Below, in pieces: positions 14,365 to 25,571 of a stretch of DNA of 64,000 bases (its first letter is position 1; each line of letters opens with the position of its first letter). The notes beneath the pieces are model-generated. The model was not told where the DNA came from. It saw only the letters and a list, made by a program, of their open reading frames with translations, and did no database searches. A program made the translations under genes and the position numbers. The stretch is from Castellaniella sp. (GTDB lineage Bacteria; Pseudomonadota; Gammaproteobacteria; Burkholderiales; Burkholderiaceae_B), in contig JAHRWZ010000062.1 in the NCBI GenBank assembly GCA_019104865.1, positions 1 to 64,000 of the forward strand. The letters are read 5' to 3'.

Positions 14365-14376
14365 TTGTCTATACAA
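14365..14376 (+). promoter_or_regulatory. HutC-type operator upstream of hutI
   Basis: TTGTCTATACAA, an imperfect palindrome of the TTGTNTATACAA type known for GntR/HutC repressors, lies 22 bases upstream of the hutI start. The same 11 bases TGTCTATACAA recur upstream of hutU (18984-18994), and the related GTATATAC palindrome occurs in two other promoters of this locus. hutC itself is at 24843-25571. Confidence 0.65.
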
Positions 14377-14398: not shown

Positions 14399-15649
14399 AT
14401 GCCGTATCTCCCCGAACCCGGCGTCCGCCCACACGGCCGCGTCTTGTGGAAGAACCTGCGCATTGTGCCGTCCGGCTGGCGGTCCGGGCTGGTGCCGCTG
14501 TGCGACCTGGCGGTCGAGGACCAGCGCATCGTCTGGCTGGGGGCGGCGGGCCAGGCGCCGACCGGTTTTCAGGCTGCGTTGCAGCATGACCTGGGTGGCG
14601 CGCTGGTCACGCCGGGGTTGATCGACTGCCATACCCACCTGGTTCATGGCGGCCAGCGGGCCAATGAATTCGCGCTGCGCCTGGCCGGTGCCAGCTACGA
14701 GGACATCGCCCGCCAGGGCGGGGGCATCGTGTCCAGCGTGCGGGCCACACGGGCGGCCGACGAGGACACCCTGTTCCAGCAGGCGCTCAAGCGCCTGGAC
14801 GCCCTGCGGGCCGAAGGCGTGACCGCCATCGAGATCAAATCCGGCTACGGCCTGGACCTGGACACCGAACGCAAGATGCTGCGCGTCGCCCGGCGCCTGG
14901 GGGAAGCGCGGCCCGTCACGGTGCGCACCACCTTCCTGGGGGCGCATGCCCTGCCGCCCGAGTACGCGGGCCGCGCCGACGACTACATCGATCTGGTGTG
15001 CAACGTCATGCTGCCGGCTCTGGATGACGAGGGCCTGGTCGATGCGGTGGATGTGTTCTGCGAGAACATCGGTTTCAGCCTGGCGCAGTCCGAACGCGTG
15101 CTGCAGGCCGCCACGCGGCGCGGCCTGGCGGTGAAAATGCACGCCGAACAGCTGTCCCTGATAGGCGGCGCGGCCCTGGCCGCCCGCTACGGGGCCTTGT
15201 CGGCCGACCATCTGGAATGGCTGGACGATGCGGGCGTCCAGGCCATGCGTCAGGCCGGCATGGTGGCCGTGCTGCTGCCCGGCGCCTACTACTTCCTGCG
15301 CGACACCCATGTGCCGCCCATCGATCTGCTGCGTCGCCACGGCGTGCCCATCGCGCTGGCCACCGACTGCAATCCCGGCACTTCGCCCGCCACATCCCTG
15401 CTGCTGATGCTGAACATGGCCTGCACGCTGTTCCGGATGACGGTGGCCGAGGCCCTGGACGGCGTCACCAGCCACGCCGCCGACGCCCTGGGCTGCGTGG
15501 GCGTCAGTGGGCGCCTGGCCGTCGGTCATCCGGCCGACTTCGCGGTCTGGGACATCGACAGCCCAGCGGAACTGGCCTACTGGATGGGCCTGCCGCGCTG
15601 CCGGATGTCCGTGCGTCAGGGCAACACCGCCTTCCAGTCCACCCGGTAG
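14399..15649 (+). CDS. hutI: Imidazolonepropionase HutI
   Basis: 416-residue amidohydrolase that opens 4-imidazolone-5-propionate to N-formimino-L-glutamate, the third step of histidine degradation. The metal-binding [10 protein letters not shown] is near residue 78-87. The conserved [24 protein letters not shown] and [10 protein letters not shown] motifs follow. The ATG is preceded by AAGGTG at suitable spacing. hutI is on the opposite strand from hutH and the two genes overlap tail to tail by 34 bases, so neither has room for a terminator. No formiminoglutamate hydrolase or deiminase (hutG/hutF) is in the window. Confidence 0.95.
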
Positions 15650-17154
15650 CTGCCTTCCAGCACCCGGCGCCCGACGATGTCCAGGTCGGGGGCCAGCAGG
15701 CGGTCGCGCTCGTAGAACGGCACATCCCGGCGGATCTTCCGGTGCAGCGCCTGCAGCGGGGCCGATGTCGTCAGCGGGGCGTGGAAATCGATGCCCTGGG
15801 CCGCGCACAGCAGTTCGATGCCGATGATGTGCGCCGTGTTGCTGGCCATATCGGCCAGCCGCCGGGCGGCGAACGTCGCCATGCTGACGTGGTCTTCCTG
15901 GTTGGCTGACGTGGGCAGGCTGTCCACGCTGGCGGGGTGCGCCAGCGACTTGTTTTCAGACGCCAGCGCGGCGGCGGTCACGTGGGCGATCATGAAGCCG
16001 GAATTCAACCCCGGTTCCGGCACCAGAAACGGCGGCAGGCCTGAAATGCTGGCGTCGATCAAAAGCGCCACGCGGCGTTCCGCCAGGCCGCCGATCTCCG
16101 CAATCGCCAGCGCCAGGATGTCGGCGGCGAACGCGATCGGCTCGGCGTGGAAATTGCCGCCCGAAATCACCTGGGCCGGCTGCCCGTCGCGCCCCGGGAA
16201 CACCAGCGGATTGTCTGTCACGGCATTGGCTTCGGTCAGCAGCGTGCGCGAGACCTGGCCCATCAGGTCGTGGATGGCGCCCATCACCTGGGGCTGGCAG
16301 CGCAGGCTGTAGGGGTCCTGCACCTTGTTGTCCGACACCAGGTGCGAGGCCCGGATCGCGCTGCCAGCGAGCAGCGCGCGGTAGCGGCGGGCGACCTCGA
16401 TCTGCCCTGGCTGGCCGCGGATTTCGTGCACGCGCGGATCGAACGGCGCATCGCTGCCCTTGGCGGCGTCGATGCTCAGCGCCCCGGCCAGCACCGCGCT
16501 GTCGAACAGGTGTTCCGCCAGGAACAGCCCGTGCAGCGCCAGGGCGGTGGACACCTGGGTGCCGTTGATCAATGCCAGGCCTTCCTTGGCCGCCAGGTGG
16601 ATGGGGGCGATGCCCGCTCGCGCCAGCGCCTGTTGCGCCGGCAGCCACTGGCCTTTGCACAGCAGGCGGCCTTCGCCCAGCAGCGCCAGCGTCATGTGCG
16701 CCAGGGGCGCCAGATCGCCCGAGGCGCCCACCGAGCCCTTTTCGGGGATGTGCGGGATCAGGCCGGCATTGAAGACCTGCATCAGCGTCCTGACCACGCT
16801 GGACCGGATGCCCGAATAGCCGCGCGCCAGGCTGGCGACCTTCATCGCCATCAGCAGGCGCGCCACGCGGGCGTCCAGCGGGTCGCCCACTCCCACGGCA
16901 TGCGACAGGATCAGATTGCGCTGCAAGGCCTGCAACTGGTCGTCGGGGATGTGCGTCTGCGCCAGTTTGCCGAAGCCCGTATTGATGCCGTAGGCCGGAA
17001 CGCCCCGGTCGATGATGGCCTGCACGATGGCGGCCGAGGCATCCATGTCGCGCACGGCCTGTTCGGGCAGCGCCAGCTGCACCTTTCCCAGCCAGATCTG
17101 GCGTAGTGCGTCCATGTCCAGCTTCCCGGGCTGCAAGGTCAAAGTCGTCGTCAT
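15616..17154 (-). CDS. hutH: Histidine ammonia-lyase HutH
   Basis: 512-residue enzyme that converts histidine to urocanate and ammonia. The Ala-Ser-Gly triad that cyclises to the MIO electrophile is in [15 protein letters not shown] (about residues 143-157). [14 protein letters not shown] near the N-terminus and [11 protein letters not shown] near the C-terminus are further family signatures. It lies 70 bases downstream of hutU on the same strand, so it ends the transporter-hutU-hutH transcription unit. The 3' end overlaps the convergent hutI. Confidence 0.95.
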
Positions 17155-17224: not shown

Positions 17225-18928
17225 CTACGAAATCATCGGCAGATTCAGGCCGAAATCCCGCGCGGTCTGGATGGCCAGTTCATAACCCGCATCGGCATGG
17301 CGCATCACACCGGTGCCGCAGTCGTTGATCAGCACACGTTCCAGTCGGCGGGCGGCGGCGTCCGTGCCATCGGCCACGATCACCATGCCGGCGTGCTGGC
17401 TGTAGCCCATGCCGACCCCGCCGCCATGGTGAAACGACACCCAGCTGGCCCCGCCGGCCGTGTTCAGCAGCGCGTTCAGCAAGGGCCAGTCGGACACGGC
17501 GTCCGTGCCGTCGCGCATGGCCTCGGTTTCGCGGTTGGGGCTGGCGACCGAGCCCGTATCCAGGTGGTCGCGGCCGATCACGATGGGGGCCTTCAGTTCG
17601 CCCGAGCGCACCATCTCGTTGAAGGCCAGCCCGGCGCGGTGGCGTTCGCCCAGGCCCAGCCAGCAGATGCGCGCCGGCAGCCCCTGGAAGGCGATGCGCT
17701 CGCGCGCCATGTCCAGCCACTGGATCATGTGGTGATTGTCGGGGAACAGTTCCTTCAGTTTGCGGTCGGTCGCGTAGATGTCTTCCGGGTCGCCCGACAG
17801 CGCCACCCAGCGAAACGGCCCCTTGCCCTCGCAGAACAGCGGGCGGATGTAGGCCGGCACGAAACCCGGAAAATCGAAGGCGTCGGTGATGCCTTCGTCG
17901 TAGGCCACCTGGCGGATGTTGTTGCCATAGTCCACCGTGGGGACGCCCATGGCGTGCAGGTCCAGCATGGCCTGCACGTGGCGGGCGCAGGATTGCGCCG
18001 CCTCGGCCCGCAGGCGCGTATGCTGGGTCGGGTCGCGCTGGGCGGCCTGCCATTGTTCTACCGTCCAGCCCGACGGCAGGTAGCCGTGGATGAGGTCATG
18101 GGCGGATGTCTGGTCCGTCACCAGGTCGGGACGCGGGCCGCCCGTCTGGGCGCGGCGGGCCAGTTCCGGCAGGACGTCGGCCGCATTGCCCAGCAGGCCG
18201 ATGGACACGGCTTCCTTGCGGCGCGTGTGTTCGGCGATCATGGTCAGGGCCTCGTTCAGGTCGCGGGCCTGCCTGTCCAGGTAGCGCGTGCGCAGTCGGA
18301 AATCGATGTGCGACTGCTGGCATTCGATGGTCAGCGAGCAGGCCCCGGCAAAGGTCGCCGCCAGTGGCTGCGCCCCGCCCATGCCGCCCAGGCCCGCCGT
18401 CACGATCCAGCGCCCCGCGAACGAGCCGTCGAAATGCTGGCGGGCGGCCTCGGCAAAGGTCTCGTAGGTGCCCTGCACAATGCCCTGGCTGCCGATGTAG
18501 ATCCAGCTGCCGGCCGTCATCTGCCCATACATGAACAGGCCCGCCTGGTCCAGTTCATTGAATTTTTCCCAGGTGGCCCATTTGGGGACCAGGTTGGAAT
18601 TGGCCAGCAACACGCGCGGCGCATCCGCATGGGTTTTGAAGACGCCCACCGGCTTGCCCGATTGCACCAGCAGGGTCTCGTCTTCCCCCAGTTTGCGCAG
18701 GCTGCCCAGGATGGCGTCGTAGCAGGCCCAGTTGCGCGCCGCGCGGCCGATGCCGCCGTACACCACCAGATGTTTCGGGTTTTCCGCCACCGCCGGGTCC
18801 AGATTGTTCTGGATCATGCGGTAGGCCGCCTCGATCGTCCAGTTGCGGCAATGCAGTTGCGACCCCGTGGGGGCGTGGATTTCGCGGCTGGCGTCATAGC
18901 GCGGATCGTCTGCGGGGGAATGGGACAC
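17225..18928 (-). CDS. hutU: Urocanate hydratase HutU
   Basis: 567-residue NAD-dependent urocanase that converts urocanate to imidazolonepropionate. [15 protein letters not shown] is diagnostic. The start is taken as GTG at 18928, because an AGGAG lies six bases upstream (18935-18939) and the product then opens as in other HutU proteins ([15 protein letters not shown]). The first in-frame ATG (18994) would put the operator region inside the gene. Operator-like repeats at 18961-18994 suggest its own HutC-controlled promoter besides read-through from the ABC transporter genes. Confidence 0.93.
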
Positions 18929-18960
18929 GGTCTGCTCCTGTGCGGAAAATATCAAGCTCG

Positions 18961-18995
18961 AATGTATATCTGTTTTATTCAAATGTCTATACAAG
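18961..18995 (-). promoter_or_regulatory. HutC-type operator(s) upstream of hutU
   Basis: Two related elements in the 128-base gap before hutU: TGTCTATACAA (18984-18994, identical to the core before hutI) and AATGTATATC (18961-18970). They are centred about 40-60 bases upstream of the GTG start, where a repressor would block a local promoter. Confidence 0.55.
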
Positions 18996-19056: not shown

Positions 19057-19887
<831 letters not shown>

Positions 19888-19890
19888 CCA

Positions 19891-20553
19891 TCAGCGCTGC
19901 AGGTAGCGGCTAGCCTTCAGTTCGGCCCAGCCCCCCAGTTTCTGCGTGACGGCGACCAGCATCAGGTAGCACACGCACAGCACCAGGGTAGTTTCGACAT
20001 AAATGAATTGTTCCGATCCGATCTGCGTCAGCACGGCGGTCAGTTCGGGCACCGTGATGATCGACAGCACGGACGTTTCCTTGCTAAGAATGATGATCAT
20101 ATTGATCAGGGCCGGGGTGATGATCACCAGCATCTGCGGCAGCTGCACGCGCCAGATGGTGCTGATGCGCGACAGGCCCAGGCAGTCGGCGGCCTCGATC
20201 TGGCCGTGGGGCACCGACAGAAATCCCGAACGGAAGATCTCGGCGAAATAGGCGCTGCCGTACAGCGCCAGCGACACGACACCCGCGTCCAGCGCCGACA
20301 GCGAGACGCCGAAATTCGGCCCGCCGTAGTACAGGACGAACAGCTGCACCAGGAACGGCGTGGTGCGCAGGATTTCGATATAGACCCGCAGTACCGCCCG
20401 GATCCAGCGGCCCGTGAACAGCTGCAGCACCGCGATGGCAAACCCCACCACCATGCCCAGCGCCACGGCTCCGACCCAACTGATGATGGTGATGCCAAAG
20501 CCATCCAGGATCTGGCCGCCGTATTGCGAGATCAGGGGAAAGTCCAGTGCCAT
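19891..20553 (-). CDS. Polar amino-acid ABC transporter permease (HisM/HisQ type)
   Basis: 220-residue His/Glu/Gln/Arg/opine-family permease with about five membrane helices (for example ITIISWVGAVALGMVVGFAIAVL). The EAA-like loop is AADCLGLSRISTIWRVQLPQ, and the RTTPFLVQLFVLYYGGP segment is typical. Three bases separate it from the ATPase gene. It shares one base with the upstream permease gene. Confidence 0.9.
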   Translation of the reverse strand: MALDFPLISQYGGQILDGFGITIISWVGAVALGMVVGFAIAVLQLFTGRWIRAVLRVYIEILRTTPFLVQLFVLYYGGPNFGVSLSALDAGVVSLALYGSAYFAEIFRSGFLSVPHGQIEAADCLGLSRISTIWRVQLPQMLVIITPALINMIIILSKETSVLSIITVPELTAVLTQIGSEQFIYVETTLVLCVCYLMLVAVTQKLGGWAELKASRYLQR

Positions 20554-21215
20554 CAGGCTCTCCCGAAACGCTGTTCGGCGTAGTGGCCCAGCACCGACAG
20601 CACCCCGTTGATCAGCATGTAGGCCAGCCCCGCGATCAGGTAGGCCTCCAGCGGTCGGAAGGTGCTGGCCGCGACGTTCTGCGCGGTGCGGGTGATTTCC
20701 GCCACGCCCACCACCGAGATCAGGGCGGATGCCTTGATCAGCAGGATCATTTCATTGATCAGCGACGGTGTGGTCAGCTTCAGCGCCTGGGGGATCTCGA
20801 TGCGGATCAGCGTGTGCGCGGACGACAGGCCCACCATCTGCGCGGCCTCGATCTGGCCGCGCGGGATGCCCAGAAAGCCGCCGCGCAGGATCTCGCCCAG
20901 ATAGGCGCCTTCGCACAGCGAAATGGCGGCAATGGCCGCCACCAGCGGCGACACATTGATCCCCAGGGTGGGCAGGAAGTAGTACGCCAGCATCAGTTGC
21001 ACCAGCAGCGGCACCCCGCGAAACAGGAAGGTGTACAGATTGCCGCAGCGCCGCAGCCATGCCGATGGCGACAGGCAGGCAGTGACGACCAGGACGGCGA
21101 CGACGAAGCCCAGCAGCAGCCCGATCACAGAGACGAAAATCGTCATCTGCGAGGCCTGCAGGATCAGGGGCAGGGCGTGCGTGAAGGTGCTGGCATCGAA
21201 CATGCGGGCTTCCAA
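20553..21215 (-). CDS. Polar amino-acid ABC transporter permease (second subunit)
   Basis: 220-residue permease pairing with the gene product of 19891-20553; equal length suggests an old duplication. Visible are FLFRGVPLLVQLMLAYYFLP and the EAA-type loop EAAQMVGLSSAHTLIRIEIPQAL. Start is Met1 (21215) or Met5. The gene lies 83 bases downstream of the binding-protein gene and overlaps the next by one base. Confidence 0.9.
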   Translation of the reverse strand: MEARMFDASTFTHALPLILQASQMTIFVSVIGLLLGFVVAVLVVTACLSPSAWLRRCGNLYTFLFRGVPLLVQLMLAYYFLPTLGINVSPLVAAIAAISLCEGAYLGEILRGGFLGIPRGQIEAAQMVGLSSAHTLIRIEIPQALKLTTPSLINEMILLIKASALISVVGVAEITRTAQNVAASTFRPLEAYLIAGLAYMLINGVLSVLGHYAEQRFGRA

Positions 21216-21298
21216 AGAAAAGCGGGGCCTGCGCCCCGCGGCGATCGGGCGGTCAGGTCAGGGCGACCGCCCGATGCGACAGGATGGAAACAGACCGG

Positions 21299-22129
21299 TC
21301 AGACGTTGGGGACGAAGTCTGCCGTGGGTACCGGCATTTCCATGCCGAACCATTTTTCCTGCAGCGCCTTCAGGCGGCCATCCTGATGCATGGCCAGGAT
21401 GACCTTGTCGATGGCGGCGATCAGCGAATCGCTGTCGGCGCCCTTGTGGCCCATGAAGGCGAAATAGACTTTTTTCCCGATGCTGGGCTGAACCACCGCG
21501 AACGTGTCGGGGCGTTCCTTTGCGGCCACGGCGATGTTGGTGATCGAATGGCCCACCGCCATGATGCGGCCATTGGCCAGGTCGGCATAGGCCTGGTTGA
21601 AGTCCACGTATTCGCGGATTTCAGGCACGGGTTTCAGGGTCTCGGCATAGGCCTTGGTCTGCGCCAGTTGCGAAGATCCGCGCTGGCTGCCGATGATCTT
21701 GCCCGCCACCTGTTCGGGCTTGGTGAAATCCTTGTTCTTGGCGCTCTTCAGGAAGGCCACGGTGCCGTCGGCGATGGGCAGGGTGAAGTGATAGCGTTCC
21801 TTGCGTGCCTTGGTGACGTTCAGCGGGCCGCCCACCATGTCGAATTTCTTCGCATCCAGGCCCGGCAGCACGCTGGCCCAGGGCAGGTCGATGAAGCGCA
21901 CCTTCACGCCCAGGGCCTTGCCGACCTCGGCGAAGAATTCCTTGTTGAAGCCTTCCTGCTTGCCGTCTTTCAGGAAATCGAACGGCGGGAACTGCATTTC
22001 GGTGCCGACGACCAGTTCACCGGCCTTGTGTACGTCGGCCAGCTGGTCCGCCTGGGCGGGCAGGGTGAACGATGCGGCGGCCAGGCAGCTGCTGGCCAAC
22101 AGCCATTTGAGTGTCGGGGTGATGCGCAT
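21299..22129 (-). CDS. Amino-acid ABC transporter periplasmic binding protein
   Basis: 276-residue SBP_bac_3 family protein. Signal peptide MRITPTLKWLLASSCLAAAS with cleavage probably after AQA; mature protein begins DQLADVHKAGELVVGTEMQFPPFDF. The ATG at 22129 has AAGGAGA just upstream and the hydrophobic signal begins there, whereas the longer upstream frame would run into the promoter. It heads a probable operon: binding protein, two permeases, ATPase, hutU, hutH. The Hut context suggests histidine or urocanate as ligand; the binding pocket cannot be read from sequence alone. Confidence 0.88.
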   Translation of the reverse strand: MRITPTLKWLLASSCLAAASFTLPAQADQLADVHKAGELVVGTEMQFPPFDFLKDGKQEGFNKEFFAEVGKALGVKVRFIDLPWASVLPGLDAKKFDMVGGPLNVTKARKERYHFTLPIADGTVAFLKSAKNKDFTKPEQVAGKIIGSQRGSSQLAQTKAYAETLKPVPEIREYVDFNQAYADLANGRIMAVGHSITNIAVAAKERPDTFAVVQPSIGKKVYFAFMGHKGADSDSLIAAIDKVILAMHQDGRLKALQEKWFGMEMPVPTADFVPNV

Positions 22130-22203
22130 GGTGTGTCTCCTTGGTTGGCGGGACAGCGCGGGCGTGCCCTGATGCCGGAAATGATAGTGGATCTGCACGG
22201 TGT

Positions 22204-22257
22204 CCGGGCTTCTTGAGGCCCGGTAAAAAGTATATACATTTGCGATGGGGTGTCAAT
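22204..22257 (-). promoter_or_regulatory. Promoter cassette of the transporter-hut operon (repeat copy 1)
   Basis: On the minus strand: -35 TTGACA (22251-22256), 16-base spacer, -10 TATACT (22229-22234). The perfect palindrome GTATATAC (22230-22237) overlaps the -10 box, a good position for a HutC-type repressor. Just downstream is a leader hairpin with a CCGGGC/GCCCGG stem (22204-22223). The whole element recurs at 24763-24815 with only three substitutions and a one-base indel. Confidence 0.8.
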
Positions 22258-22321
22258 TACCGAGAGCCAGGCCTGCGCGCGAATCCGCGTGAATTAAGGG
22301 TAAATCCCAGGCGGTGGCAGG

Positions 22322-23464
22322 CTACGCTGCGAGCATCTGCCGGGCGATGATGGTGCGCTGGATCTCGGACGAGCCCTCGTAGATGCGCAGGATCCGGGCG
22401 TCGCGCACGTAGCGCTCCAGCGGCATGTCGCGGGTGTAGCCGTAGCCGCCGTGGATCTGCAGGGCGCGGTCGGTGATGAAGCCGACGGCTTCGGATGCAA
22501 CCAGTTTTGCCATCGCGGATTCCAGGGAAAACCGCTCCCCCGATCCCCGCTTGTGGGTGGCCTGCAGCGTCAATGCCCAGGCGGCTTCCAGGCGCAGCTT
22601 CATGTCGGCCAGCATCCATTGGATGCCTTGCTTCTCGGCCAGCGGTTCGCCGCCGATCAGGCGTTCCCGCGACCAGGACACGGCGGCCGCCAGCGCCGCT
22701 TCCGCAATGCCCAGGCTGGTGGCGGCCACATCCAGGCGGCTGTTGTCCAGCACCTTCATGGCGGTGCGAAACCCGCTACCTTCCTCGCCCAGCCGCTGGG
22801 TCGCGGGCACCCGGCAATCCAGCGCCAGTTCGAAGGCATGGCCGCCCCGGATGCCCATGAGCTTTTCCGGTTGGGATATCTGCAGGCCGGGGGTGCCCTT
22901 GTCCACGACGAAGGCGCTGATGCCCCGGCTGCCCGCCTGGGGGTCGGTCTTGGCGTAGACCACGATGAAATCGGCCTCGCCCGCGTTCGAGATGAAGTGC
23001 TTGACCCCGCTCAGGTGATAGTGGTCGCCGTCGCGCCGCGCGCGGGTGCTCATGTCCGCCGGATTGGACCCGGCCCGGGGCTCGGTCAGGGCGAACGCAC
23101 CCAGGATGCTGCCCTGGGCGGCCCGGGGCAGAAAGCGCGCGCGCAAGGCGTCGTCGCCCCCGATCAGGACCGAGTCGGTCGCCAGGTAGTGGGCGCCGAT
23201 CATTGATGCCGTCGCCGCGCAGCAGCGGGCGATTTCGACGATGGCCAGCACCAGCGCGGTGGGACTGACCCCGGGGCCGCCCCAGCGTTCCGGCAGGTTC
23301 ATGCCCATGACGCCCAGGGCCGACAGCCCGGGCACGTGGCAGGTTGCCGATCGGGCCTGCTCGTCCAGTTCGGCGGCCAGGGGGGCGAGTTCGGCCGCTG
23401 CGTAGCGACCGATGGCCGCGGCGATTTCCAGATCGTCGTCACTGACGCCCAGGCGTGGATTCAT
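22322..23464 (-). CDS. Acyl-CoA dehydrogenase
   Basis: 380-residue FAD-dependent acyl-CoA dehydrogenase that introduces a 2,3-double bond into an acyl-CoA. FAD-binding stretches include FALTEPRAGSNPADMST and KHFISNAGEADF. The C-terminal LQIHGGYGYTRDMPLERYVRDARI and the EGSSEIQR motif, whose first Glu is the usual catalytic base, are present. The start at 23464 (MNPRLGVSDDDLEIA) follows an AACCATC context downstream of GGAGAAC. It lies 34 bases after a family III CoA-transferase gene driven by a HutC-type promoter, so its substrate is probably linked to histidine or urocanate metabolism; the exact acyl group is unknown. Confidence 0.88.
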   Translation of the reverse strand: MNPRLGVSDDDLEIAAAIGRYAAAELAPLAAELDEQARSATCHVPGLSALGVMGMNLPERWGGPGVSPTALVLAIVEIARCCAATASMIGAHYLATDSVLIGGDDALRARFLPRAAQGSILGAFALTEPRAGSNPADMSTRARRDGDHYHLSGVKHFISNAGEADFIVVYAKTDPQAGSRGISAFVVDKGTPGLQISQPEKLMGIRGGHAFELALDCRVPATQRLGEEGSGFRTAMKVLDNSRLDVAATSLGIAEAALAAAVSWSRERLIGGEPLAEKQGIQWMLADMKLRLEAAWALTLQATHKRGSGERFSLESAMAKLVASEAVGFITDRALQIHGGYGYTRDMPLERYVRDARILRIYEGSSEIQRTIIARQMLAA

Positions 23465-23498
23465 GATGGTTCTCCGGTGTATTCCAATCAAGACGGGT

Positions 23499-24710
23499 TT
23501 AGCGCCCGAAGACGCCCAGATCGCGCAGCGCGCTGATTTTGTCCAGGCTCAGCCCCAGCAGATCATGCAGGATCGTGTCGGTGTCGGCGCCCAGATCCGG
23601 CGCCGGGCGCGTCGGGCGCGTTTCCCAGGCGGAAAACCGGATCGGCTGATGGGGCAGCCGCAGACCCGCCAGGTCCGGGTGGGCCACGTCCTGCAGCAGC
23701 TGGCGGGACTGCGCCTGGGCGCTGTCCAGTGCCTGGCGCACCGTCCAGATCGGCGCGGCCGGGATGGCGTTGGCCTCGAAGCGTTCGACCGCCTGGGCCA
23801 CGGTCAGTGCCGCCGCCCAGGATTCGATGGCTTCGCGCAGCAGCGGTTCGTGTTGCGAGCGCTGCTCGTCGCTGGCGAAGCGGGGGTCGCGCGCCAGGTC
23901 GTCGCGGCCGATGACCCGGGCGAACTGCGCAAACAGTTTGTTGTTCAGGATCGCCAGGACGAAATGCCCGTCCTTGGCCTGGTAAGCGCCAAAGGGGGCG
24001 GATAGCGGATGCCGGTTGCCCACCCGGTGGGCGTCCCGGCCGGTGAACAGGTACCGCGCGACGGCGGTGACGGTGAACGACAGCGTGGCATCGAACATCG
24101 CCGCGTCCACGTGGGTGCCCCGGCCGTCGCGGTCGCGGCCGATCAGGGCCGCCAGGGTGCCCCAGGATGCGAACAGGCCGCTCAGCACGTCGGTGATGGC
24201 TTCTCCGACCAGTGTGGGTGGGCCATCCGGGAAACCGGTGGATTCCATGATGCCGCTCATGGCCTGGATGATGATGTCGTAGGCGGGCCGATGCGCGGCC
24301 GGGCCATCCTGTCCGAAACCGGAAATGCTGGTGTAGACCAGGCGCGGGTTCAGCGCGCTGAGCGTGTCGTAGCCGATGCCCAGCTTGTCCGCCACTCCCG
24401 GCCGGAAATTTTCGACCACGATGTCGACTTCGGGGACCAGCTGGTGCACCAGCGCCACCGCGTCGGGCTGTTTCAAGTCGAGCGCCAGGCTTTGTTTGTT
24501 GCGGTTGACGACACTGAACAGCGCGCTGTGGCCGTCGCGCATCGGGCCGATGGCGCGGTAGTCGTCGCCCTGAGGGGGTTCGACCTTGATGATGTGTGCG
24601 CCCAGGTCCCCCAGCAGCGCGGTGCAAAAGGGGCCGGACAGCACCCGGGTGAAATCCAGCACGCGCAGGCCGTCCAGGGGGCCCTTGCTGGTCTGAGTGT
24701 CCTGCGCCAT
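23499..24710 (-). CDS. Family III CoA-transferase (CaiB/BaiF)
   Basis: 403-residue CoA-transferase. The N-terminal GLRVLDFTRVLSGPFCTALLGDLGAHIIKVEPP is diagnostic, and the catalytic aspartate is expected in the AYDIIIQAMSGIM region. These enzymes move CoA between carboxylic acids. The ATG at 24710 has GGAGA six bases upstream, whereas the longer frame would run through the promoter. Its promoter (24763-24815) is a near copy of that of the amino-acid transporter/hut operon. hutC is directly upstream on the same strand. Together with the dehydrogenase gene it could activate and desaturate an imidazole-containing acid (see findings). Confidence 0.88.
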   Translation of the reverse strand: MAQDTQTSKGPLDGLRVLDFTRVLSGPFCTALLGDLGAHIIKVEPPQGDDYRAIGPMRDGHSALFSVVNRNKQSLALDLKQPDAVALVHQLVPEVDIVVENFRPGVADKLGIGYDTLSALNPRLVYTSISGFGQDGPAAHRPAYDIIIQAMSGIMESTGFPDGPPTLVGEAITDVLSGLFASWGTLAALIGRDRDGRGTHVDAAMFDATLSFTVTAVARYLFTGRDAHRVGNRHPLSAPFGAYQAKDGHFVLAILNNKLFAQFARVIGRDDLARDPRFASDEQRSQHEPLLREAIESWAAALTVAQAVERFEANAIPAAPIWTVRQALDSAQAQSRQLLQDVAHPDLAGLRLPHQPIRFSAWETRPTRPAPDLGADTDTILHDLLGLSLDKISALRDLGVFGR

Positions 24711-24762
24711 ATCGTCTCCGTGGTGATCCATCACGGACCCGGGCCGCCTGGCGGCGCCGGTT

Positions 24763-24815
24763 CCGGGCTTCTTGCGGCCCGGTAAAAGTATATACATTTG
24801 CGCTAGGGTGTCAAT
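24763..24815 (-). promoter_or_regulatory. Promoter cassette of the CoA-transferase operon (repeat copy 2)
   Basis: Minus-strand -35 TTGACA (24809-24814), 16-base spacer, -10 TATACT (24787-24792), with the palindrome GTATATAC at 24788-24795 over the -10. A hairpin with the CCGGGC/GCCCGG stem (24763-24782) is in the leader. It is a near copy of 22204-22257. It starts 28 bases beyond the hutC stop, so hutC read-through is also possible. Confidence 0.8.
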
Positions 24816-24842
24816 CGCAGCGTGCCCCGAAGGGCCGGTCCG

Positions 24843-25571
24843 CTATGTCTGCCCTGCGAGCTTGTAGCGATTGCCGGGGTACCACATCACCGCCTGAGAA
24901 GCGAACGCCCCGCCCGAAAATGTCATGCGGTCCAGCACCAGGCAGGGCTGTTCCACCGGGATGTCCAGCGGTTCGGCTACGGTTTTCGGGGGCAGTTTGA
25001 CCTCGATCGTGTAGCGCCCGGAGGGCGCGGGCGCGGCGTGCATCAGGTATTCGTTGGGGGTCGTTTGCGACCAGTCCTGCTGCAGATAATCCGGCAGGCG
25101 CCGGGCGTCGACCACGCGATCTTCCAGCTGGATGGGTTCCGCGTTTTCGTAATGCACGATGATCGAATGAAACAGAGGCGCGCCCACCGGCAGGTGAAAG
25201 CGCTGCGCCTGCGTCGTGGACACCTTGGTTTTTTCCAGCAGCAGCACGTGGCAGGAATGCTGGTGCCCCCGATCGTGGATATCCTGGGCGATGCTGCGGA
25301 TCTCGATTAGGGTGGACGGGATTTTCGCGGGCGCCACATAGGTGCCCGACCCCTGGTAGCGCAGCAGCACCTGGTCCGCCGTCAGTTCGCGCAGGGCGCG
25401 ATGCACCGTCATGCGCGACACACTGAATTGCTTGCACAGCGCCAGTTCGGTGGGGATCAGTTCGCCTTCCGTCCAGGCGCCACCGCGAATCTGTTGAAGG
25501 ACGTAGTCCTTGATGCGCTGGTAGGCGGGCGTCGCCCGCGCGGTGGTCTCGGTCTGGGCCTGGCGGGGCAT
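24843..25571 (-). CDS. hutC: Histidine utilisation repressor HutC (GntR family)
   Basis: 242-residue GntR/HutC-type regulator. N-terminal winged helix-turn-helix, about residues 12-80 (YQRIKDYVLQQIRGGAW, the recognition region FSVSRMTVHRALREL, and GSGTYVA). The C-terminal UTRA effector domain is about residues 95-235. In the hut systems studied, HutC represses until urocanate binds. It lies between its probable targets: the CoA-transferase operon downstream, and the transporter-hut operon further on. The motif AGGACAC lies about nine bases upstream of the ATG. Confidence 0.9.
   Translation of the reverse strand: MPRQAQTETTARATPAYQRIKDYVLQQIRGGAWTEGELIPTELALCKQFSVSRMTVHRALRELTADQVLLRYQGSGTYVAPAKIPSTLIEIRSIAQDIHDRGHQHSCHVLLLEKTKVSTTQAQRFHLPVGAPLFHSIIVHYENAEPIQLEDRVVDARRLPDYLQQDWSQTTPNEYLMHAAPAPSGRYTIEVKLPPKTVAEPLDIPVEQPCLVLDRMTFSGGAFASQAVMWYPGNRYKLAGQT

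Follow-up and report, generated by a model that had tools for sequence, protein, structure and literature searches.

A CoA-transferase and acyl-CoA dehydrogenase pair under predicted HutC control as a probable entry of imidazolepropionate into histidine utilization in Castellaniella

CoA loops, in which CoA is transferred from the product to the substrate and the transfer is coupled to an acyl-CoA dehydrogenase (ACAD) acting on an arylacrylyl-CoA or arylpropionyl-CoA, are represented by CarA/CarC for caffeate and FldA/AcdA for phenylalanine. The degradation of imidazolylpropionate by Pseudomonas testosteroni, now Comamonas testosteroni, was reportedly described by Coote and Hassall in 1973, to judge from the title of their paper. 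In the available passages of more recent literature, UrdA is described as a flavin enzyme that reduces urocanate, in the context of the interconversion of urocanate and imidazolepropionate (PMC10882135), the targets of the repressor HutC are given as the histidine-utilization (hut) enzymes, HutD, and transporters, with histidine biosynthesis in two genomes (Leyn et al, 2016; PMC5343134), and imidazole propionate, which gut microbes produce and the formation of which by urocanate reductase is under study, is presented as being linked to both type 2 diabetes and cardiovascular disease. Here, we analyzed a 64,000-nucleotide stretch of DNA from Castellaniella sp. (contig JAHRWZ010000062.1; hereafter, the window), which belongs to a genome of 3.46 Mb in 102 contigs and 89% completeness (G000) and carries, within a hut cluster, the genes for a class III CoA-transferase (CoAT) and an ACAD. 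The two enzymes probably feed the hut pathway by means of a CoA loop that would oxidize imidazolepropionate to urocanate for the urocanate hydratase HutU.

The genes of the cluster are arranged on the minus strand in the order of hutC, CoAT, ACAD, a solute-binding protein, two permeases, an ATPase, hutU, and hutH, with hutI divergent, so that the pair lies between the hut transporter operon and hutC, as the first-pass annotation of this DNA had placed it. The features, in window coordinates and with open reading frame abbreviated as ORF, are as follows.

24843..25571, minus strand: hutC, histidine-utilization repressor of the GntR/HutC family (TIGR02018, 262.6 bits; cut-off, 220)
23499..24797 (ORF), minus strand: CoAT, of the CaiB/BaiF/formyl-CoA-transferase type (NCBIfam matches all under the curated cut-offs)
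22322..23491 (ORF, 389 amino acids), minus strand: ACAD (NCBIfam matches all under the curated cut-offs)
19057..22198, minus strand: amino-acid-type ATP-binding cassette (ABC) transporter with a solute-binding protein, two permeases, and an ATPase (both permeases above the domain model TIGR01726)
17225..18994, minus strand: hutU, urocanate hydratase (TIGR01228, 934 bits; cut-off, 375)
15616..17154, minus strand: hutH, histidine ammonia-lyase (TIGR01225, 682.8 bits; cut-off, 539.15)
14399..15649, plus strand: hutI, imidazolonepropionase (TIGR01224, 476.1 bits; cut-off, 298.15)

HutC, HutU, HutH, and HutI all scored above their NCBIfam equivalog cut-offs. None of the ABC transporter proteins reached an NCBIfam equivalog cut-off. 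The start of CoAT is likely ATG 24710, preceded by GGAGAC, because the called start at 24797 lies inside the operator described below and 5' of the expected transcription start; that of ACAD is likely ATG 23464, preceded by GGAGAA.

The CoAT promoter (24755-24822) and the transporter promoter (22200-22262) were identical in 51 of 55 aligned columns, with three mismatches and one gap, as counted by eye on the alignment from ATTGACA to AGCCCGGA. In both, TTGACA is separated from TATACT by a 16-bp spacer, and GTATATAC overlaps the -10 box, in agreement with the earlier claim that the pair promoter is a near-copy of the transporter-hut promoter with the same palindrome at that place. HutC-type sites, of which those before hutU and hutI had not been included in that claim, were located in the window as follows.

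24786..24797, minus strand: ATGTATATACTT, on the -10 box of the CoAT promoter (-35 TTGACA, 24814-24809; -10 TATACT, 24792-24787)
22228..22239, minus strand: ATGTATATACTT, on the -10 box of the transporter/hut promoter (-35 TTGACA, 22256-22251; -10 TATACT, 22234-22229)
18983..18994, minus strand: TTGTATAGACAT, 5' of hutU (sequence match)
14365..14376, minus strand: TTGTATAGACAA, 5' of hutI (sequence match)

The core of the HutC-type operator is GT-N-TATA-N-AC. In the 3.46-Mb assembly, ATGTATATAC occurred exactly twice, at the CoAT and transporter promoters, and the wider form WTGTATAKACWW, a pattern devised after the sites had been seen, occurred four times, only before hutI, hutU, the transporter, and CoAT, compared with one genome match of the reversed pattern and no match in 100 shuffles of the window. 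Thus, the cluster encodes a HutC repressor and carries HutC-type operators at the pair promoter as well as at the core hut genes, and the HutC control of the pair that the first-pass annotation had proposed is, owing to the shared operators and the near-copy promoter, strongly supported as a prediction for the window genome. G298, a genome of the same species, retains ATGTATATAC and TTGACA at both promoters, with some differing bases in between; G299, another Castellaniella genome, has ATGTATATAC before the transporter, and its hutU and hutI are each preceded by a HutC-type site. The transcript starts of both window promoters have in common a hairpin-forming CCGGGC..GCCCGG (22203-22224 and 24762-24782), which is also present, slightly altered, at the transporter promoter of G298. 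This shared 5' leader hairpin was considered as an RNA regulator, but no such regulator is claimed because the whole leaders fold about like their shuffles (z of -1.34 and -0.97, not clearly better).

To place the window in a wider range of bacteria, we used the relatives of its CoAT, 141 of which were confirmed in a genome-contig scan. The counts refer to the best 80 loci (L numbers), each consisting of CoAT and up to 10 kb on each side, with the window's own loci (L001 and L002) excluded and a hut gene called at more than 45% identity to that of the window. ACAD immediately followed CoAT in 74 of the 80 loci, and hutH, hutU, or hutI was present in 37 (30 of 60 when only loci with 15 kb or more are counted), the individual counts being 37 for hutH, 32 for hutU, 25 for hutI, and 22 for all three. 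The gene maps, which were drawn from ORF clustering with HutF, HutG, and HutD neighbors confirmed by family models in one representative each, indicated diverse arrangements. In Comamonas, Delftia, and Variovorax (11 loci measured), hutH and the pair are 4.6 to 5.2 kb apart, the distance being about 4.6 kb in Comamonas testosteroni (L021 and L022); in Paracoccus relatives, hutH or hutG precedes the pair and hutU follows it, in the order hutI-hutH-(hutG)-pair-hutU; and the pair is found 3' of hutU at 0 and 4 bases in L066 and L078, in the order hutU-pair-hutD. The order is hutC-pair-transporter in the window and G298, and transporter-GlcD-like-pair-hutU in G299.

It could be argued from Castellaniella caeni, in which the pair is unlinked and flanked by a LysR gene with the hut cluster elsewhere in the genome, and hence from a change of place within the genus, that the pair is a bystander, that is, a module for short-chain acids in general that came to lie beside hut genes with a copied promoter. 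However, the linkage recurs with differing neighbors in Comamonadaceae, Burkholderiaceae, Paracoccaceae, and rhizobia. Furthermore, on a CoAT tree of 80 rows (the 80 loci and the window gave 81 rows, from which L036, with a 309-amino-acid ORF, was left out), the hut label required 14 changes, whereas shuffled labels needed about 27 and not one of 500 shuffles gave so low a number, a result that is favored by near-copies. In a control with paralogous CoATs, 20 regions, each 17 to 20 kb long, were inspected in the four pair-bearing Castellaniella genomes, and none (0 of 20) had hutH, hutU, or hutI; these regions covered 22 of the 30 paralogous places (7 of 8 in G000, 7 of 8 in G298, 4 of 4 in G293, and 4 of 10 in G299). 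We regard the bystander explanation as highly improbable.

The pair also co-occurs with hutU. Of 250 genomes sampled evenly across the window's order, 50 had hutU, and 2, one of them the window's own, had the pair; for CoAT, the order and family scans scored only the best seven or eight candidates per genome. Within Castellaniella, the pair was present in 4 of 10 genomes, all among the 5 with hutU (Fisher p 0.024), and in the family of genome G127, it was present in 5 of 200 genomes, all among the 105 with hutU (Fisher p 0.038), these p values ignoring kinship. The samples overlap, as G339 of the family sample is the genome of L008 and shares its hutU place. In four of these five genomes, the pair and hutU are 6.4 to 10.1 kb apart, and in one, they are on separate contigs. 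Taken together, the shared operators, the recurrent linkage, and the co-occurrence with hutU strongly support the prediction that the pair functions in the hut pathway, to which the first-pass annotation had assigned it.

With respect to the enzymes themselves, the AlphaFold model of ACAD (predicted local distance difference test score, 89.7) had ACADs as its closest solved structures (Foldseek template modeling score, 0.92), and E372 in IYEGSSEIQR (numbering of the 389-amino-acid ORF), which was invariant in a 30-row alignment, aligned with the catalytic E368 of rat short-chain acyl-CoA dehydrogenase (SCAD; 1jqi). ACAD thus has both the fold and the catalytic Glu of its family. Among 73 aligned rows, position 254 was acidic in all of the 72 that have a residue there (D in 40 and E in 32), whereas it is Gly in four and Thr in one of the five best solved ACADs. 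This acidic residue, which lies on a helix and may be in the substrate pocket, could hold an imidazole and is compatible with a basic imidazole substrate. His101 was also considered as a distinctive residue and rejected, as it is conserved in 73 of 73 rows, yet three of those five solved ACADs have it as well.

Because the top NCBIfam match of ACAD was the acryloyl-CoA reductase AcrC (377.6 bits, below the equivalog cut-off of 640), and the caffeyl-CoA reductase CarC (6fah) was among its solved relatives, the pair might be thought to run in reverse, with the reduction of urocanate via urocanoyl-CoA to imidazolepropionate serving as an electron sink or overflow. Such a direction does not agree with the gene context, as the operons that the pair adjoins or forms part of contain hutU and hutI, the products of which use up urocanate; in addition, AcrC and CarC use electron-bifurcating electron transfer flavoprotein (ETF) complexes of anaerobes, whereas the hosts here are mostly aerobic. 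We would give the reverse direction very little weight.

The best solved chain for CoAT was YfdE (4hl6; 316.8 bits), and the first Asp of HVDAAMFD, the predicted catalytic residue, has a counterpart Asp in the alignment with both YfdE and SUGCT, as is the case for a class III CoA-transferase. A plasmid search for CoAT matched 33 records, 32 of them at less than 60% identity, and 5 of the 33 were examined. On Rhizobium and Sodalis plasmids, a gene for an aromatic amino acid ammonia-lyase precedes that for a CoAT of about 49% identity to the window's (L178:7407-11869 and L177:7457-11857), and the row continues with 3-hydroxyacyl-CoA dehydrogenase and enoyl-CoA hydratase genes. Since these CoAT genes follow a lyase gene, arylacrylate chemistry is suggested for the CoAT relatives, in keeping with the loop proposed below, and the row may possibly represent a beta-oxidation-like route for the lyase-made arylacrylate.

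In the proposed loop, CoAT would move CoA onto imidazolepropionate, ACAD would desaturate the resulting imidazolepropionyl-CoA to urocanoyl-CoA with electrons passed to ETF, and CoAT would then use urocanoyl-CoA as the CoA donor for a further imidazolepropionate, freeing urocanate, which would be degraded by HutU and then HutI according to established hut chemistry. Such a cycle would need only catalytic CoA and no ATP. Urocanate relieves HutC repression, so that the product of the loop would also induce the loop. The imidazolepropionate route is the simplest fit, in that CoA activation followed by alpha,beta-desaturation would give the substrate of HutU, and because the pair is under the predicted control of the repressor of histidine breakdown and travels with hut genes in many bacteria, it probably returns imidazolepropionate to the hut pathway.

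Several observations weigh against this route. Neither CoAT nor ACAD attained a curated cut-off among the NCBIfam families listed, and the position of Gln254 of SCAD, which was tried as an argument about the pocket, is occupied by T, M, or Q across the family and is non-discriminating. The lyase-linked CoATs, which have no ACAD beside them, resemble the window CoAT about as closely (49%) as do the CoATs in the hut operons of Paracoccus relatives (49-52%), and the CoAT family is, therefore, not of one function. In addition, 43 of the 80 loci, including that of Castellaniella caeni, the nearest named relative, had no hutH, hutU, or hutI within up to 10 kb on each side, and the one Paracoccus yeei plasmid examined had no hut gene near the pair. 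In the genomes of these 43 loci, hutU was present elsewhere in 36, a figure that speaks for the route but stands without a matched base rate for Rhodobacterales, and a hutU match was absent in 7, all of which are metagenome-assembled genomes; the 21 records among the 43 that were read as named strains all had hutU. The kinship that the above Fisher p values ignore belongs to the same side of the balance, as do the regulatory differences among loci described below.

Accompanying these points is the alternative that the pair acts on some other acid met together with histidine, such as a substituted imidazole- or hydantoin-propionate or a dicarboxylate, the product or inducer of which enters histidine catabolism. 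The substrates of class III CoA-transferases and ACADs are not readable from sequence, which, with the cut-offs not reached and about half of the loci having no hut linkage, leaves room for this alternative. On the Paracoccus aminophilus plasmid pAMI4 (L179:1097-10391), moreover, the pair and a LysR gene have as neighbors the genes for a urocanate hydratase, a DUF917 protein, and other kinds of hydrolase (a Zn-dependent hydrolase and an amidohydrolase). However, the linkage to hutU, hutH, and hutI in varied operons and lineages, the co-occurrence with hutU, and the acidic residue at position 254 fit an imidazole acid that desaturation would turn into the substrate of HutU, and the glutarate pathway was rejected as a candidate because its models were far from their cut-offs (succinate-glutarate CoA-transferase, 302.9 of 750 bits; glutaryl-CoA dehydrogenase, 224.3 of 470 bits). 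We therefore consider another acid to be an unlikely substrate, and imidazolepropionate remains the one that we favor.

The regulation of the pair differs among loci, which also weighs on the above balance. The first-pass annotation had suggested checking whether the pair co-occurs with hutC in related genomes. The linkage to hut genes extends to 37 of the 80 loci, as given above, but HutC-type control did not extend far, as the exact HutC-type site WTGTATAKACWW was found before CoAT in only two of the 80 loci (L038 and L039), and a divergent LysR gene was present 5' of CoAT in 48. In L038 and L039, the site is ATGTATAGACAT, and a HutC-like gene, assigned by ORF clustering with no family-model score, adjoins CoAT. 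An ancestral HutC control was considered and rejected, as the best matches to TGTATATACA 5' of CoAT in the 80 loci included a one-mismatch site only in these two. On a Mesorhizobium plasmid (L175:4683-11267), a compact module is made up of hutC, an ABC transporter, and the pair, with an exact ATGTATAGACAT before CoAT and a one-mismatch site, identified by eye, before the transporter; no further annotated hut gene was found in the 19 kb examined. Because the site occurs in 2 of the 80 loci and a LysR neighbor is usual, HutC control is predicted to be a local, recurrent solution, and the link between the pair and hut resides in gene content and place. A GGTATATTC-like stretch is located 5' of CoAT in many Rhodobacterales loci, and a shared GGTATATTCA stretch is located there in L046, L047, L049, L054-L056, L058, L060, L061, L064, L075, and L081 (Rhodobacterales and Stappiaceae); the latter is possibly a promoter or a site for the LysR regulator. 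A TRAP-type transporter is also encoded on loci with the pair or hutU, namely, L050, in which the DctP family was confirmed, and, by clustering, L064, L069, L075, L077, and L008, and is a candidate uptake system for urocanate or imidazolepropionate.

Within Castellaniella, the transporter, a GlcD-like FAD-linked oxidase, CoAT, ACAD, hutU, and hutH are all in one direction in G299, and in G298 and the window, the pair lies between hutC and the transporter under the near-copy of the transporter promoter; the simplest inference is that the promoter was duplicated when the pair moved. G298 has the GlcD-like gene between the ATPase gene and hutU, where the window has none. In the hut/pair clusters, the GlcD-like gene is located at L148:3872-5335 (minus strand), L147:12228-13622 (minus strand), and L066:11065-12465 and, by clustering, in L004, L028, and L036. 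The solved relatives of the oxidase include D-2-hydroxyglutarate and D-lactate dehydrogenases, and it may oxidize imidazolelactate. It is conceivable, although we put this forward only tentatively, that the HutC cluster as a whole is a funnel for histidine-derived acids, in which the self-priming, ATP-free loop would return imidazolepropionate and the GlcD-like dehydrogenase, where present (G298, G299, and L066 and, by clustering, L004, L028, and L036), would return imidazolelactate to the histidine pool. The funnel would provide genes for the physiology of 1973, and the Mesorhizobium plasmid (hutC, transporter, and pair) would represent a portable imidazolepropionate module.

The first-pass annotation knew of no described hut branch for the catabolism of imidazolepropionate. 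That part does not stand for the physiology, because the title from 1973 already reports imidazolylpropionate degradation; the novelty is limited to the genes, and the gene and enzyme assignment appears to be new. A literature search that covered few subscription journals found no gene assignment for imidazolepropionate breakdown, there was no occurrence of urocanoyl-CoA or urocanyl-CoA among the matches listed, and the available passages of a 2026 preprint (PMC13320830) contained none of the three terms for imidazole propionate degradation that were looked for. If the proposed route is true, an old physiological observation would obtain its genes and could be tested by one deletion, and the hut regulon would extend from histidine and urocanate to related acids. 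In addition, organisms that consume imidazolepropionate could be recognized by the pair in genomes and metagenomes, and the enzymes might serve as a tool for removing imidazole propionate.

Compared with known systems, UrdA, as described in the available passages (PMC10882135), concerns the same compounds, whereas the pair is proposed as a CoA-thioester route in the oxidizing direction. The HutC regulon of Proteobacteria likewise has HutC, with hutH, hutU, hutI, and a transporter under shared operators, and its account, in the passages available, names no CoA-transferase or ACAD, both of which are present in the window cluster (PMC5343134). Succinate-glutarate CoA-transferase and glutaryl-CoA dehydrogenase are also a class III CoA-transferase and an ACAD, but the pair misses their cut-offs and has a hut context. 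The imidazolylpropionate degradation reported for Pseudomonas testosteroni has the same proposed substrate, and the species has the pair near hut. Finally, the CarA/CarC and FldA/AcdA loops are reductive and found in anaerobes, whereas the loop proposed here for the CoAT and ACAD of Castellaniella would be oxidative and lead into the hut pathway.

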